Assembly (NCBI GenBank): GCA_003584005.1
Contig: QXHL01000009.1
Location: 1-64,000 of the forward strand
DNA length: 64,000 bases
Direction of reading: 5' to 3'
Origin: Alicyclobacillaceae bacterium I2511
GTDB lineage: Bacteria > Bacillota > Bacilli > Alicyclobacillales > Alicyclobacillaceae
The notes under the pieces are model-generated. The model was not told where the DNA came from. It saw nothing but the letters and a program-made list of their open reading frames with translations, and did no database searches. The translations under genes and the position numbers were made by a program. Shown here piece after piece: positions 5,561-61,765 of the stretch (position 1 is its first letter; each line of letters starts with the position of its first letter).

Positions 5561-5612
5561 GTACGTGAGGGAGCATTTTGGGCGACGACGCAGCAATGCG
5601 CCGGGGAGTTCT

Positions 5613-5635
5613 GACCCCTTTCCGGACAACCTCTA
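5613..5635. repeat. Half copy of the GTCCGGAAAGGGGTC palindromic repeat
   Basis: GACCCCTTTCCGGACAACC followed by TCTA. The 15-base core is identical, as reverse complement, to the arms of the palindromes at 13456-13507 and 61720-61765. Only one arm is present here, in the gap downstream of korB, as expected of a decayed MITE-like insertion or a solo IS end. Confidence 0.6.
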
Positions 5636-11639: not shown

Positions 11640-12920
11640 TTAGGAACCAATCATCTGATTCTCGTTCATTTCTTCCAACGATTGATATCTCGTTTCGGGC
11701 AGTCCCAATGTGAGGGCCGATCCAATAAGTGCCAGTATCGCGGTGAGAACTAAAATCGTCTCAATCCCATGCGCTTTTAGAACAATGGGCAATAGAAAAG
11801 CGCTAATAAAGGCTCCGATTCGGCTAATAGCCGTTCCCATTCCCATCGCCGTGCCACGCACATTCGTGGGCACTAATTCAGACACAAAAATTCCTGTGGT
11901 TTGTCCCGTCCCACCGGCATTCGCAATGTAAAATACGGCAAAACAAATACCCAGAATAAAAAGTGATGGTTTAGGATCAAGTGCAAACAATAGCAGTGTC
12001 AATCCCTGCAACAAAAAACCCCAGGCCTGCAATGGACGACGTCCCCAGCGATCGAGCAACATCATCCCCAAAAATGCACCACAAAGACCCAGAATGTCCA
12101 ATATTCCCGAACCGGTAATTGAAGCAACGTGTGTTTTCAGACCCATCCCTAAAAGCAAAATAGGTGTGTAAATTCCAATCCCATAAAAAATAATGTCGTT
12201 AATAAACCAGTTTGCATAAGATAACCAAACGCGGCGTACAAAAGGTGGCTTAAATAGAATTCCCACCGGGCTTTTCGATTTATTAGATTTCAGCCTTACA
12301 GCTTCTGTCACGGCTTTCCAACGGGGGCTTTCAGGCACTGTATGCCGCAAGATAAGCACTACAATCGCCGGAATCACACCAACCAAAAGTGTCAGACGCC
12401 ACGCCAAACCACCAGTACTCAAAAAAAGCAATCCAATAAAAATTGAAACAACAGCACCTATCCAATACGCAAATAAGCCAGCTCCCATTAACTTTCCGCG
12501 GCCTTTGATGGGTGCAAACTCACTCAAGATTGTCAAAGTTAATGCGTAGTCAGCCCCAATTCCAATTCCAAGAAGTCCTCGGGAAACTATTAATTGCCAA
12601 ATATTTTGTGAAAAAGCTGCTGTAATAGTAAAGATAATAAATATCACTAGATCCCACATATATATGCGACGCCTTCCAAATAAATCGACAAGAAATCCTG
12701 CCCCGAGACCACCCACAAACATCCCGGCCAAAGTAGCTGAACCAATAAATCCAGTCGCCACTGCGGACGGATGAAACGCAGGAACTATTGTGAGCAGGGC
12801 GACAGAAATCACTAGAAGATCAAATCCGTCTAGAAAATAGCCAGCAACAGTCAATACTGTAACTCGAACATGGGTCCTATCAATCGGCATCCTATCGCGT
12901 TCAATGAGCGATTCATCCAT
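11640..12920 (-). CDS. MFS transporter, sugar/aromatic-acid:H+ symporter type (paralogue)
   Basis: 426 residues, twelve TM segments, with GYFLDGFDLLVISVALLTI, the loop FLVDLFGRRRIYMWD, IGIGADYALTLTILSEFAP and PESPRWKAVTEA. Same architecture as the carrier at 9921-11264. ATG at 12920 is preceded by GAGGAGG; the open frame runs on to 12977 without a ribosome site. Probably a proton-coupled importer of organic acids. Ends at a strong terminator. Confidence 0.82.
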   Translation of the reverse strand: MDESLIERDRMPIDRTHVRVTVLTVAGYFLDGFDLLVISVALLTIVPAFHPSAVATGFIGSATLAGMFVGGLGAGFLVDLFGRRRIYMWDLVIFIIFTITAAFSQNIWQLIVSRGLLGIGIGADYALTLTILSEFAPIKGRGKLMGAGLFAYWIGAVVSIFIGLLFLSTGGLAWRLTLLVGVIPAIVVLILRHTVPESPRWKAVTEAVRLKSNKSKSPVGILFKPPFVRRVWLSYANWFINDIIFYGIGIYTPILLLGMGLKTHVASITGSGILDILGLCGAFLGMMLLDRWGRRPLQAWGFLLQGLTLLLFALDPKPSLFILGICFAVFYIANAGGTGQTTGIFVSELVPTNVRGTAMGMGTAISRIGAFISAFLLPIVLKAHGIETILVLTAILALIGSALTLGLPETRYQSLEEMNENQMIGS

Positions 12921-13087
12921 TTTATAAGCTTCCTCCTCGTATCCTTGATATTCGAATCGGTAGAATAAAGAAATCAAATTCCCATGAATGCGATTACACT
13001 TTGTGGGAACTTAAATCTGCATTTTATATTTTCACCCTCCCATTTAACTTGAATTTTTACAGTAGTTGAAGCGAAGAAGATAAAAAT

Positions 13088-13455: not shown

Positions 13456-13507
13456 ATAGAGGTTGTCCGGAAAGGGGTCTGGTCAGACCCCTTTCCGGAC
13501 ACACGCT
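13456..13507. repeat. Palindromic MITE-like repeat, GTCCGGAAAGGGGTC family
   Basis: Arms GTCCGGAAAGGGGTC (13465-13479) and its exact complement (13486-13500) are separated by six bases and bordered by TATAGAGGTT on the left. The same core occurs as one arm at 5613-5635 and as a perfect palindrome with a CTATAG edge at 61720-61765. This copy lies about 80 bases upstream of the 13586 gene and might affect its expression. Confidence 0.7.
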
Positions 13508-13585
13508 TGTAGTGTCATCACTACAAGATTTATTTGAAGAAACCTTCGCTCTCTCTTTCATTAAAATAAAAAGGAGTGATATTGA

Positions 13586-15001
13586 ATGAGTATGCAAGTA
13601 CAACCCAAACCCAACACCCCTGTACCCGCACGTATTGGGCCACTGTCGTGGAATCAAGCCATCTTAGGTCTTGGCATTTGGCTAGCCCTGTTTGCGATTG
13701 GGAGTTTATTCATTTCCAATCCCTTTTGGGATGAAACCAGTGCCGCTGCAACCCCCAACTACGCCCATGTGATGTATCTCCACGGATTACTAATCGGTTT
13801 GGCTGCACTGATTGTACTGGTTGCCTGTGAAGTGTTTCAACTGCATTCCAATGGTGTACGCGTATTCTCTTTAATCGCGGCACTCCTCTCCACCCTGTTA
13901 GTAAGCCTTGGCGGAATTTTTGACGCCTCATTGCAGCCAGTTCATTGGGTTTGGCTTATTTTACATGTGATTGGATTTTTCTTACTGGACGCCATTTTTA
14001 TTGCCATGCTCGTAGGATTTTTCATGGAACTCAAACATCCCTCAGAAACTACTCGTAGCCTGCCCTTTTGGCTGGCTATTCTCGCCGGGTTCTCTCTAGA
14101 ATTTGCAGCTCTGATGGGGCACCTTGCAGGATGGATTTTGAGCTTTGGGGACCATCCGGCCCTTCTTGGAGCTTGGGCCCATCTGGTGGGAGAAAAGCTG
14201 AGTGATTTTGATGGCAATCTCATCACTTCCCATTCCCATGAAATTGTAGTCGCTTTATTGGCCTTGCTCGTGGCGATAATGGCCCATCGTTTTGGATATT
14301 CCTCTCTCAAAGCAGGTGCCAAAACCTTGGCGCAAGTGGGTGGATGGTTTGTGATTGCTGGAACCATACTGATGACCGTGATATATGTCGTAGGAGGGAT
14401 TACCTCTGCGGAGCCCCCTACCTTATTCGCTTTTGGACCAGGGGGGGTGAGTGGCCTCGCCGGGGATGATTTGGTGACAGGTGTCGGTGTAATGATTGGC
14501 GGCCTTCTGCTGCTGTTGGGGCTAATCCTAAACAAATCGGAAAAAAGGGAAGCCTTGGAGTCGCAAGGAACACGGTATACCCTGGCCGCTCTCGTATGGT
14601 CGTGGTTGTTGTTAGTACTGACAATGATTGGAGCAGGGTATTACATTGAACTCCATGAGGCCTATTTTGGTGCCGGTAGTTCTTCTGCACCTGGAGCCAC
14701 GGCAGATGCTATTTTCACTTTTGCTCACCAAGACTATGCGTTTTTCATGCTCCCGGCTTTAATGGTGGTTCTCTTATTAACCAACCTCGTCATGCATAGT
14801 CGAGAAATAACCATTGCCTGGGGCTCAATGACTGGAAGTTTCATCACTTTTATTGGTGTCATGACCTACGTCTTTGCCACACCCACGATATATTCGGTGG
14901 GTTACATCCTCTGTGCCATTGGCGTAGCGGTGATGTTTATCACCCTCTTAGTGTTTTTACAAGGTTTGTGGAAGGTTAGCGTAAAAGAGGCTAAAGCGTG
15001 A
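13586..15001 (+). CDS. Polytopic membrane protein with conserved-looking histidines (possible haem-binding, oxidase-like)
   Basis: 471 residues with about twelve membrane helices and no signal peptide. Histidines fall inside or at helix ends: AHVMYLHGLLIG, PVHWVWLILHVIGFF, MGHLAGW, NLITSHSHEIVVALLALLVAIMAHRFGY, YIELHEAYFGAG and FAHQDYAFFMLPALM. Such spacing recalls haem-copper oxidase subunit I and related quinol-linked proteins, but the full Cu-binding HxxxY/HH set is not evident, so this is only a suggestion. No cytochrome partner is adjacent. GGAGTG lies upstream of the ATG. A single-gene unit with its own strong terminator. Function unknown. Confidence 0.6.
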   Translation: MSMQVQPKPNTPVPARIGPLSWNQAILGLGIWLALFAIGSLFISNPFWDETSAAATPNYAHVMYLHGLLIGLAALIVLVACEVFQLHSNGVRVFSLIAALLSTLLVSLGGIFDASLQPVHWVWLILHVIGFFLLDAIFIAMLVGFFMELKHPSETTRSLPFWLAILAGFSLEFAALMGHLAGWILSFGDHPALLGAWAHLVGEKLSDFDGNLITSHSHEIVVALLALLVAIMAHRFGYSSLKAGAKTLAQVGGWFVIAGTILMTVIYVVGGITSAEPPTLFAFGPGGVSGLAGDDLVTGVGVMIGGLLLLLGLILNKSEKREALESQGTRYTLAALVWSWLLLVLTMIGAGYYIELHEAYFGAGSSSAPGATADAIFTFAHQDYAFFMLPALMVVLLLTNLVMHSREITIAWGSMTGSFITFIGVMTYVFATPTIYSVGYILCAIGVAVMFITLLVFLQGLWKVSVKEAKA

Positions 15002-15023
15002 ATATCCTACTATAAATTTTATT

Positions 15024-15056
15024 CAGGGAGCCCAGGAGACCCTCCTGGGCTCCCTG
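15024..15056 (+). terminator. Intrinsic terminator after the 13586-15001 gene
   Basis: Perfect 14-bp stem (CAGGGAGCCCAGGA with its complement at 15043-15056), five-base loop, then ATTTTCTT. Standard rho-independent terminator, 23 bases after the stop codon. Confidence 0.9.
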
Positions 15057-15235
15057 ATTTTCTTAAGGTTGAAAATTTAAGTATCACAATTTGGTGTTTT
15101 TCCGAATGATGGAGCACCCGAAACTAAACAGGCCACAGGCTTTGAAGCCGTTTCAGTATAGGTCTGTGCTTAAGTATTTCAGCCCCTAAGGCACGTATTA
15201 TGCGGGCTCCAGTCACAAGAAATCATGGGTTACAC

Positions 15236-17308
15236 TCAGGACATGTGCTCTGGGACTGTATATGCGGACATTTGCGTCCAGTCGTGGGGAATTTCTGTAC
15301 TCGTCCACTGACTTCTGGGATAAAACTCGTGATGTTCTCTGAAGTAAGTATCCAATAATTGTCGAGTAATGGGGGCGGCCGTTTCAGCACCGTAACCCCC
15401 ACCCGGAATCATGACTGCCACAGCCACTTGCGGATGTTTATACGGTGCATAACAAATAAAAACAGAGTTTAGCACTCTCTGTCCATTCATGGTAATTTGC
15501 GCCGTACCGGTTTTACCAGCAGCCTTGTAAGGGGCCCCAACAAAAGAGGCATAAGCCAAACCGTCCGGATCATTGCATACGGCGTACATTCCTTCATGGT
15601 CCAACCTAAAGTATGCTGGACTTGCTTGGACCGTATTAAGTACTTTAGGTTTCACGACCTCCAAAGGCTTAACTTTGCTTGGCAACCGGGTATTGGGAGG
15701 AAAAACTTTGCTCAACAAGTGGGGTTCAATGCGCTTCCCATTGTCTGCCACTGTGGCCACATACTGAGCCAATTGAATCGTCGTGAATTGCTGGGATTGT
15801 CCAATGGCCCCAAAAGCCAAGTCAATAGGAGACCCATAATTCACATCCTGGCCCGTCTTTTTTAACGCATTCTCTGCAGAATGTAAGTGAAACGGGACCT
15901 TAATCCAACCACGATGGCTGTCCGAAATAAAGAATTCCCCTGGTACTTCTCCTGGTAAATCAATGCCGGTCAATGGGCCTAAGCCAAAGTTCCACTCAGT
16001 TTGAAACATCCGAGTGATGCCACGGACAAAATCCGTATTTCGCCAAGTTCGATAACTCATGCCTGCAGGTGGGCCACCCCCAGTGGTCGCAGTGGAACCC
16101 ACCCAGTGCCCCAGGTTGAGGCCTAAATGATAGAAAAAAATGTCATCCGAAATAGCAATGGCTTTAATGAGGCCCACCAAACCAGCGGCAAAGTCACCGT
16201 GCCGCATTGTTTGTCCAATTTTAATCCAGTTAGTGTCATACACTGTAGTCCTGGGAGTGATGGCCCTATACTTTAGCCCTGCAATCGTATTCGCCGCCTT
16301 CACAGTGGATCCAGGCATTTGCGCGCTTTGGATGGCGTAGTTCATTTGCGCACCAGAGGTGGCCAAGTACTTCTGGTGTTTTAGATAACCGGACCCGGTG
16401 TACCAATTGGGGTCCATATAAGGGTAACTGACCATTGCCAATACGCCACCCGTCTTAATGTTTAATACAACCGCAGATGCGCTGGTAATGGTGGATTTGT
16501 AGGGCGATGAATTAATCTCGTTCATCACATCCTGTTGTGCCTTAGCCTGCAAGTGACCCTCCAAAGTCAATTGTAAAACTTTTCCTGATACGGGTGGGGG
16601 CGAATCTCCCAGGTACTTTACAGGGTCGCCAGCAGCATTTACTGCCATCACTTGATATCCTATTTTTCCTTGCAACAAAGATTCATATTGTGCTTCCAGC
16701 CCGGTTTCCCCAATTCTCTGAGTAGGTAAATATTTTAATTTATTGACGTAGTAGTTTTTAACGGCCGAGGTAATCGGCCCTGTGTATCCAATGACTTGAC
16801 CCGCCAAATCCCCGTAAGGATAGACACGATGCGGTTGCAAAACAATACGAATGTTTGGAAACCACTGGTGATTCCCTTCGATGTACGCAATCTGGGCTTG
16901 TGTGGCATTTTGACGCAGTGTCACCTGAACGGCCGCCGGGTTTGCGGTCATAGACTTGTAAAGGACATGGGCGGATTCTTTTAGAATGGGTGCAAGTTTT
17001 TCAGCCATAGCGTGGTAGGTGTGTCGATGGGTGTTGGCAAACTGTGTTAGCACCACATCATAAGTAGGTCTGTCATAAGCCAGTAAATCGCCATGACTGT
17101 CGTAAATCCAGCCTCGAGCAGGCAAAATGGGCACCTTACTGAGCATCATGTCGTTTGCTTGAGACCGAAAGGTGGCCCCATGGACCACTTGATCCATTCC
17201 GAGACGTACCACCAATGAAACAAAAGCAAGAAATACCATGCCATAGATAACGCTGGCACGGTGAGCCCTAGTGATTCGATTCTTTTCATCCCACATGTCC
17301 TTGTTCAA
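15236..17308 (-). CDS. Penicillin-binding protein 2 (class B PBP, elongasome transpeptidase)
   Basis: About 690 residues. One N-terminal membrane anchor (SVIYGMVFLAFVSLVVRLG), a PBP dimerisation domain, and a C-terminal transpeptidase. The catalytic SxxK is GSTVK near residue 335, the SxD-type second motif is ISDDIFFYHLG, and the KTGT motif is AAGKTGTAQI. It cross-links peptidoglycan outside the membrane, with RodA/MreB during elongation; here it is not clustered with rodA or mreCD, so it may be a second copy. The TTG at 17308 has AGGGGG eight bases upstream; an ATG at 17296 is the alternative start, preceded only by AAGGAC. Confidence 0.85.
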   Translation of the reverse strand: MNKDMWDEKNRITRAHRASVIYGMVFLAFVSLVVRLGMDQVVHGATFRSQANDMMLSKVPILPARGWIYDSHGDLLAYDRPTYDVVLTQFANTHRHTYHAMAEKLAPILKESAHVLYKSMTANPAAVQVTLRQNATQAQIAYIEGNHQWFPNIRIVLQPHRVYPYGDLAGQVIGYTGPITSAVKNYYVNKLKYLPTQRIGETGLEAQYESLLQGKIGYQVMAVNAAGDPVKYLGDSPPPVSGKVLQLTLEGHLQAKAQQDVMNEINSSPYKSTITSASAVVLNIKTGGVLAMVSYPYMDPNWYTGSGYLKHQKYLATSGAQMNYAIQSAQMPGSTVKAANTIAGLKYRAITPRTTVYDTNWIKIGQTMRHGDFAAGLVGLIKAIAISDDIFFYHLGLNLGHWVGSTATTGGGPPAGMSYRTWRNTDFVRGITRMFQTEWNFGLGPLTGIDLPGEVPGEFFISDSHRGWIKVPFHLHSAENALKKTGQDVNYGSPIDLAFGAIGQSQQFTTIQLAQYVATVADNGKRIEPHLLSKVFPPNTRLPSKVKPLEVVKPKVLNTVQASPAYFRLDHEGMYAVCNDPDGLAYASFVGAPYKAAGKTGTAQITMNGQRVLNSVFICYAPYKHPQVAVAVMIPGGGYGAETAAPITRQLLDTYFREHHEFYPRSQWTSTEIPHDWTQMSAYTVPEHMS

Positions 17309-17341
17309 CAAAGCAACCCCCTTGAAGATGTAACACAACGA

Positions 17342-17397
17342 GTAAACTAGAAAATTAAACTCTCTCAAAGTGAACTGGAAAATTAAACTCTCTCAAT
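17342..17397. repeat. 28-bp tandem duplication in the PBP2 upstream region
   Basis: Two head-to-tail 28-base units (17342-17369 and 17370-17397) identical at 25 positions, sharing AAAATTAAACTCTCTCAA. They lie 34-89 bases before the PBP2 start. Each contains, on the minus strand, TTGAGA followed by an AT-rich stretch, so the duplication could double a promoter or operator. The rest of the 17309-17663 gap, between divergent genes, has nothing else I can name. Confidence 0.7.
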
Positions 17398-61719: not shown

Positions 61720-61765
61720 CTATAGGGTGCGTGTCCGGACCCCTTTCCGGACACGCACCCTATAG
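61720..61765. repeat. Perfect 20-bp palindromic repeat, GTCCGGA family with CTATAG ends
   Basis: Arms at 61720-61739 and 61746-61765 are exact complements with a six-base loop CCCCTT. The central GTCCGGA..CCCCTTTCCGGAC core is shared with 5613-5635 and 13456-13507. CTATAG at both outer ends may be the terminal sequence or a duplicated target. Located between the CoA-transferase operon and the alcohol dehydrogenase fragment. Confidence 0.75.

Follow-up and report, generated by a model that had tools for sequence, protein, structure and literature searches.

A predicted haem-copper-oxidase-fold membrane protein with an invariant H-x-H in its middle four-helix unit, from an unnamed bacterial family

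The window analysed here, a 64-kb stretch of the genome of Alicyclobacillaceae bacterium I2511, carries on its + strand at 13586..15001 an open reading frame (ORF), supported by its codon-position pattern, for a 471-aa protein that we predict, from an AF2 model and structure matches, to have twelve transmembrane helices (TM1 to TM12) in the fold of haem-copper oxidases (HCOs). The ATG start is preceded by a Shine-Dalgarno-like AAGGAG (13571..13576, +), and a terminator scan placed an intrinsic terminator, a 16-pair stem followed by TTTTCTT, at 15023..15057 (+), which confirms the strong terminator proposed in the initial annotation. The promoter region that the same annotation gave the gene was not borne out, as the + strand from 13400 up to the ATG holds no sigma-70-like match. 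Both flanking genes lie on the opposite strand and, by eye, are MFS-transporter-like (11640-12977, -) and penicillin-binding-protein-like (15236-17368, -); there is no cytochrome or cupredoxin neighbour, so the lack of a cytochrome partner noted initially stands within the window. Upstream of the gene, a repeat search also found a perfect 18-bp inverted repeat with a 2-nt loop (13464..13501, no strand assigned), here taken as a candidate element. Single-mismatch copies of its half-site lie at 5611-5627 and 61736-61752, and because the window holds four matches to it against 0.01 expected, the repeat may be a dispersed element.

Two further copies of the gene (81% and 74% identity) occur in the same genome (3.48 Mb, 232 contigs), so that the term orphan, first applied to it, is only partly apt. 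The window gene and the copy on contig C161 differ by 85, 34 and 238 changes at codon positions 1, 2 and 3, respectively (187 synonymous and 90 non-synonymous codons), and this concentration at the third position indicates, at the level of sequence, purifying selection on the gene copies. The TAA in the C161 copy falls at the end of the query, and the ORF is otherwise open. Near that paralogue (L066, G000:C161, 2379-10952) lie moaA and a molybdopterin oxidoreductase/NrfD/4Fe-4S operon, which perhaps encodes a respiratory reductase.

A scan of genome contigs returned 23 loci, distributed among one Bacillota MAG, Peptococcaceae bacterium CEB3, one MAG labelled Micrarchaeota and, for the remainder, Chloroflexi, Ktedonobacteria and Actinobacteria/Actinomycetes MAGs. 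Alignment A1 contained the main group only (16 of the 23 loci plus two own-genome copies), and alignment A2 contained 22 of the 23 (L016 left out), three own-genome copies and six distant rows. A 36-row set added L057, L119, L122, L123 and L124 and omitted L051 (truncated at the edge of its contig), L055, L117, L118, L120 (the same gene as L122) and duplicates; it comprises 25 main-group, three group B, five group C and three group D (L122-L124) homologues, with 14-81% identity to the window protein. Group D matched the 31-row A2 profile over 335 columns (93.5%, E 2.3e-7), as against just 64 columns (23%) of the main-only A1 profile. Two candidates were dropped: L028 (E 6e-4), whose ORF of 155 aa is not long enough to belong, and L121, by eye a sugar-transferase-like ORF.

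Taxonomically, the family spans several bacterial phyla, and a single genome may hold as many as four members. It was found in one of 199 genomes of the window genome's own phylum, three of 59 of its own order (one being the discarded L028), 14 of 400 in the phylum of one Chloroflexi MAG (distant forms counted) and five of 396 in the phylum of an Actinobacteria MAG (the false match L121 among them), and a group-D protein used as query found three among 326 genomes of the latter phylum. According to PMC8982180, CEB3 belongs to the sulfate-reducing genus Acididesulfobacillus and was obtained from reactors that treated acid mine water at pH ~2.5, and many of the other carrier MAGs can be read, from their isolate codes, as coming from acid sites. 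One main-group copy of ~50% identity (L006) sits on a 20.9-kb contig of the MAG labelled Candidatus Micrarchaeota LL2.bin4, likely through mis-binning.

Sequence searches assigned the protein to no family. No Pfam family exceeded its cut-off (NDUF_B12 alone appeared, at E 0.3), neither NCBIfam models nor PDB sequences gave a match, and Pfam COX1 matched neither the window protein (E<=10) nor nine relatives (E<=1). An 18-row profile did not return the COX1 and qNOR of its own genome at E<=10, and the 31-row profile run against PDB sequences returned no HCO and three chance rows (E ~0.5), so a direct profile match to HCOs was rejected. Keyword searches of open-licence papers found none describing such a family by title or abstract, which is weak evidence of absence.

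Structurally, the AF2 model built from the 31 rows (pLDDT 87.7, pTM 0.90) contains twelve long helices (22-43, 59-83, 89-115, 121-149, 159-187, 205-235, 243-272, 293-314, 327-356, 371-402, 404-430 and 438-470), the number initially proposed, against 11 segments from hydropathy alone. The first nine rows of a Foldseek search of the PDB were HCO/NO reductase (NOR) chains at probability 1.00 (best E 1.1e-2, 1ehk; no row at E<=0.001); a MATE transporter ranked tenth (probability 0.33), and low-probability transporters and receptors were mixed into the lower ranks. With VIA-align, the model matched CcoN of cbb3 (8smr; Z 23.6, rmsd 4.0, 388 aligned residues, 12% identity), cNOR (4xyd; Z 22.0) and aa3 (3om3; Z 21.8), and the best 50 matches listed were all HCO/NOR by title (Z 19-24, 374-410 residues), at 6-14% identity in the structural alignments. 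The early guess at the fold, which was to be checked against haem-copper oxidases and NorB, therefore holds, because HCO and NO-reductase catalytic subunits are the best matches of the model. By prediction, then, the product is a membrane protein of twelve helices built on the HCO/NO reductase scaffold, the modelled fold being that of the 12-TM catalytic subunit of the haem-copper oxidase superfamily (PF00115).

The protein has 15 His, of which five (H66, H179, H216, H218 and H381) were invariant in the 18-row alignment. Across the 36 rows, H66 (TM2; codon 13781..13783, +) and both His of the H216-S-H218 motif (TM6; 14231..14239, +) are present in every sequence, and at 14-81% identity this invariance is far from a chance scatter. 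H381, in the H381-Q-D383 motif of TM10 (14726..14734, +), is kept in 34 of 36, with Q in the subgroup-B members L048 and L050. Two residues are confined to the main group, namely H179 (TM5; 14120..14122, +; 25/25) and D113 (end of TM3; 13922..13924, +; D in 24 of 25). Position 383 varies by group, being D in the main group (25/25), M in B, L in C and H in D, which gives the TM10 variants H-x-D, H/Q-x-M, H-x-L and H-x-H (H-W-H in group D), and D294, D295 and D374 are conserved carboxylates. Thus the second helix of each four-helix unit (TM2, TM6 and TM10) bears H66, H216/H218 and H381, respectively, and the invariance of the TM6 motif puts an invariant H-x-H in the middle unit. The intramembrane-His pattern noted initially accordingly survives at H66 (YLHGLLIG) and H216/H218 (SHSHEIVV) and fails at H127 (LILHVIGFF), which in the 18-row alignment is His only in own-genus copies and L006 and mostly Q elsewhere. 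An unrelated fold with unconserved histidines is the reverse of what was found, as HCO and NorB chains are the best matches and the key His are invariant.

HCOs carry six invariant His, a TM2 H, a TM6 H, a TM7 HH and a TM10 H-x-H, as is also seen in the COX/NOR set compared here. Of this superfamily (PF00115) set, the window family has the TM2 H, an H-x-H on TM6 and, in 25/25 main rows, H-x-D on TM10, and the TM7 His-His pair that holds CuB or FeB is absent from all 36 rows, in keeping with the initial remark that copper ligands were not obvious. An HH dipeptide occurs elsewhere in three rows (towards the N-terminus in L119, towards the C-terminus in L012 and at the TM3 end in L057), and all five group-C rows have a His at the TM3 end, one of them as His-His (GYGTLHHV). 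Like the catalytic subunits CcoN, COX1 and NorB (PF00115), the family combines a 12-TM three-unit scaffold with a single His on two pseudo-equivalent helices and H-x-H on the third; unlike them, it places that H-x-H on TM6 instead of TM10, lacks the TM7 HH, reaches 6-14% structural-alignment identity to them, and has no recognised partner subunits and no PF00115 match.

NnrS (PF05940), a haem/copper membrane protein of NO metabolism with ~12 TM, has an H-x-H-E-M motif near its N-terminus, whereas the motif of the window family lies on TM6. Pfam NnrS did not match the window protein (the positive control, L125, matched at 1.9e-113), and hhalign paired the family with NnrS over 15 columns only, around H-x-H-E-M (P 0.013). 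Separately, a 645-aa ORF at L089 (1060-2994; G262:C135, ~14.9-16.2 kb) has three separate Pfam COX1 matches, all to approximately the TM9-12 part, the motifs H-T-H, H-A-H and H-A-Q, and a COX1-like gene nearby; it looks like a tandem three-unit HCO-homology protein, and was rejected as kin of the family's units for want of detectable kinship. Pei and colleagues (2014, Protein Sci 23:1220), whose work is the closest published framework, reportedly described HCOs as three homologous four-helix units and defined 'HCO homology' (HCOH) families, NnrS included, and most 12-TM HCOH proteins, on the same account, could bind one haem. Compared by that description, the window family resembles the 12-TM HCOH proteins in its three four-helix units, between which there is a weak repeat signal (e.g., unit 1 versus unit 3, P 5e-4), and in having fewer His than HCOs, places its ligand His on the second helix of the units as the HCOH definition has it, and departs from them in conserving four to five His against the usual two. 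The work of Pei, Li, Kinch and Grishin (2014) is cited in sections of PMC10927120, PMC11218638 and PMC12329440.

Genomic context in relatives, a check suggested at the outset, yielded haem-O-synthase-type neighbours in subgroups B and C and hemerythrin-type neighbours in part of the main group. In a crude ORF comparison, neighbour families were shared by three main-group loci at most; its one five-locus cluster consisted of ORFs antisense to the family gene, and a candidate ORF family with no Pfam match recurs in three main-group loci (L008, L012 and L016). This comparison missed the hemerythrin-type ORFs that a directed search later located ~<=1 kb from the gene in five of the 25 main-group loci (L008, L009, L012, L015 and L016), all Chloroflexi MAGs and not independent. 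Pfam confirms the hemerythrin domain in a further ORF of L009 (9644-10165), and at L062 in G664 a hemerythrin-type ORF is located 6 kb away from the group-B gene; no neighbour of this type accompanies the window's own copy. These ORFs could represent a possible NO/O2 link. No electron-donor partner (subunit II or cytochrome c) was recognised beside the window gene, or as recurring across loci in the crude ORF comparison. Directly after two of the three group-D members lies a small membrane-like ORF of 130-132 aa (L139 2781-3170; L140 10519-10914), one with a sub-cut-off DUF4064 match, which is a possible partner.

In eight of nine subgroup B/C genomes searched (G259, G664, G403, G418, G541, G646, G410 and G387, and not G938; the subgroup-C genome G505 was left out), a haem-O-synthase-type gene directly adjoins the family gene. 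An NCBIfam scan of four of these adjoining genes put two over the TIGR01473 cut-off and two below. Seven of the eight genomes carry another gene of this type at a separate place (in pieces only in G541); in G664 the adjoining gene is the only strong match, and that MAG shows no COX1. All three group-D genomes have ctaB elsewhere. In the main group, a ctaB match over cut-off is present in seven of 16 genomes, most of the rest being possibly incomplete MAGs, and CEB3 (G257, 5.3 Mb) has only weak UbiA-level matches, none near the ctaB cut-off. No ctaB recurs beside main-group copies, the ctaB-type ORF at L015 flanking a subgroup-B gene. PF00115 genes occur in ten of 16 family-carrying genomes (nine over cut-off), and the window's genome has two elsewhere that are, by eye, COX1 and qNOR; in G403 a ctaA-like sequence adjoins COX1 (by eye).

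Functionally, our main reading, to which we give about an even chance, is that of an HCO-scaffold haem b protein with its site at the middle-unit H-x-H, engaged in small-gas binding or reduction. Judging from its anatomy, the protein would bind haem b, and the middle-unit H-x-H would act like the H-x-H of oxidase TM10: H218 and H381 of the next unit would clamp a low-spin haem as a bis-His pair, and H216 would ligate a second haem on its proximal side, the open face of that haem being turned towards H66 of the preceding unit, where oxidases hold CuB. The absence of the HH pair argues against a normal CuB, and in the window's subgroup H179 together with D113/D383 might add a different metal site, such as a non-haem iron held by His and carboxylate. 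The protein would then serve as a single-subunit protective protein that binds or reduces a small gas of two atoms, either NO or, at low flux, O2, and not in proton-pumping respiration. Such a gas-handling protective role seems likeliest by analogy with NOR and NnrS and given the hemerythrin-type neighbours in some loci, and haem b rather than haem O or A is suggested for the main group because G257 carries the gene without a near-cut-off ctaB match. The haem-O-synthase-type gene beside subgroup B/C members counts for this main reading as a haem link, and the Q at the H381 position in L048 and L050 counts against it.

Whether the family's units match those of HCOs in order or rotated by one unit bears on where the site would lie. 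In hhalign, the 36-row profile paired its TM1-7 with NOR TM5-11 at 38.1 (P 8e-4, hhalign's own) and, when started at TM9, scored 40.3 (P 4e-4) over 281 columns, against 22-23 for a reversed NOR control. A rotation scan against a joint HCO profile peaked at 42.5 over 355 columns with the profile start in TM9 or at TM10, compared with scores of 37.1 for the natural order and 26-27 when the query was reversed; the highest reversed-template control of the full set was 29.1. All whole-set alignments to NOR or joint HCO exceeding 200 columns were in the rotated register. Likewise, the TM5-8 block fitted NOR TM9-12 best (29.1, versus 13.4 for TM5-8), block-score sums against NOR were 42 in order, 60 for a one-unit and 39 for a two-unit rotation, and a TM1-8 fragment with its own AF2 model took, on both cNOR matches, residues 152-458, which we read from the ranges as TM5-12 (15% identity). 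Forced global mode gave 33.0 rotated versus 28.6 natural for joint HCO; with NOR alone the rotated profile failed (4.2 versus 19.1 natural).

Several comparisons count against the main reading. The true HCO pair NOR versus COX scores 125-137 in hhalign, far above the family's scores; off-register units within HCOs reach 25-45 from internal repeats, so that pseudo-repeats alone can yield such rotated-register scores; and the top local alignment to COX by itself, a weak one (28.2, P 0.019), matches TM10-12 in order. Single subgroup profiles score little above reversed controls (best, main group versus COX, 31.1; reversed maximum 27.5). Block-score sums against COX were 46.5 in order, 50.6 for one-unit and 53.5 for two-unit rotation. 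On qNOR matches the TM1-8 fragment lay in order in some (271-584) and across odd ranges in others (3-747), and in Foldseek it returned weak rows only, MAPEG-type four-helix proteins among them. The NO reductase comparison mildly favours a site rotated by one unit, the oxidase comparison does not, and we hold the rotated site to be somewhat more likely than the in-order one. Read in the rotated register, the group-C GYGTLHHV at the TM3 end resembles, by eye, the GHH of NOR TM7.

The in-order assignment of ligands is nonetheless a real possibility, at less than even odds. It would have H66 bind a low-spin haem and H381 a high-spin haem, D383 (or M/H) stand in for the latter His of H-x-H, and a CuB-like three-His site be formed by H179 together with H216/H218, thus drawn from TM5/TM6, not TM6/TM7. 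Supporting it, VIA-align aligned the whole model in order over residues 8-471 and the TM1-8 fragment in order on the oxidase/CcoN matches listed (7o37, Z 15.8; 9g83, rmsd 3.7); the TM9-12 block fitted COX TM9-12 best (21.9, P 0.0098), and the best local COX match is in order; and group D offers both its TM10 H-W-H and a result in its favour from a block test that was otherwise ambiguous. The rotated long alignments to NOR and joint HCO, the preference of the TM5-8 block for NOR TM9-12 and the placement of the fragment on both cNOR matches tell against it. As this alternative concerns ligand assignment and the other alternatives concern function, their likelihoods do not add up to certainty. 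In a bolder form of the rotated site, which we consider unlikely, the protein would be a catalytic subunit of HCO type in which the cofactor site has moved round the pseudo-threefold scaffold by one third of a turn, either by circular permutation (TM1-8 corresponding to NOR TM5-12 and TM9-12 to NOR TM1-4) or by migration of H-x-H to the middle unit, with CuB replaced by a His-plus-carboxylate site (H66, H179 and D113). If true, this would be a previously unknown class of haem/non-haem-iron membrane enzyme.

Among the functional alternatives, reuse of the scaffold for a non-redox task, whether transport or a site for metal or protons, appears improbable: the conserved carboxylates D294, D295 and D374 and the several copies in the window's own genome would suit it, and the conservation of His on three pseudo-equivalent helices argues the other way. 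That the protein is a genuine NO reductase or terminal oxidase whose CuB ligands are unusual, as first hinted, is decidedly improbable; the HCO fold would suit it, as would the presence in the same genome of COX1 and, by eye, qNOR, so that such chemistry occurs there, but the absence of a TM7 HH, of a Pfam COX1 match and of a recognised subunit II or cytochrome c neighbour speaks against it, as does a copy in CEB3, of a sulfate-reducing genus. The initial likeness to an oxidase or quinol-linked haem protein hence stands for the fold and not for the ligand set, the Pfam COX1 match or a partner subunit, and with no TM7 HH, no Pfam COX1 match and no recognisable adjoining partner subunit that identity is unproven. 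Least probable is a role in haem processing alongside haem O synthase, for instance as an alternative haem A maker or haem O carrier. The ctaB-type gene (usually a second copy) that adjoins subgroup B/C members would suit it; against it, no ctaB recurs beside main-group copies, nine of 16 main-group genomes, G257 included, lack an over-cut-off ctaB (most being possibly incomplete MAGs), and a ctaA-like sequence lies beside COX1 in G403 (by eye).

Evolutionarily, what we describe looks like a real, conserved, unnamed family on the HCO scaffold with redistributed ligands, rather than a working oxidase. A gene family recognised here by no Pfam or NCBIfam model can now be named as such, and is tied to a haem O synthase gene in two subgroups and to a hemerythrin-type gene in some Chloroflexi. 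Aerobic respiration is driven by HCOs, whose three-unit scaffold and metal site are of unsettled origin; the four subgroups that differ at position 383 (D, M, L and H) offer natural intermediates with which to test that history.
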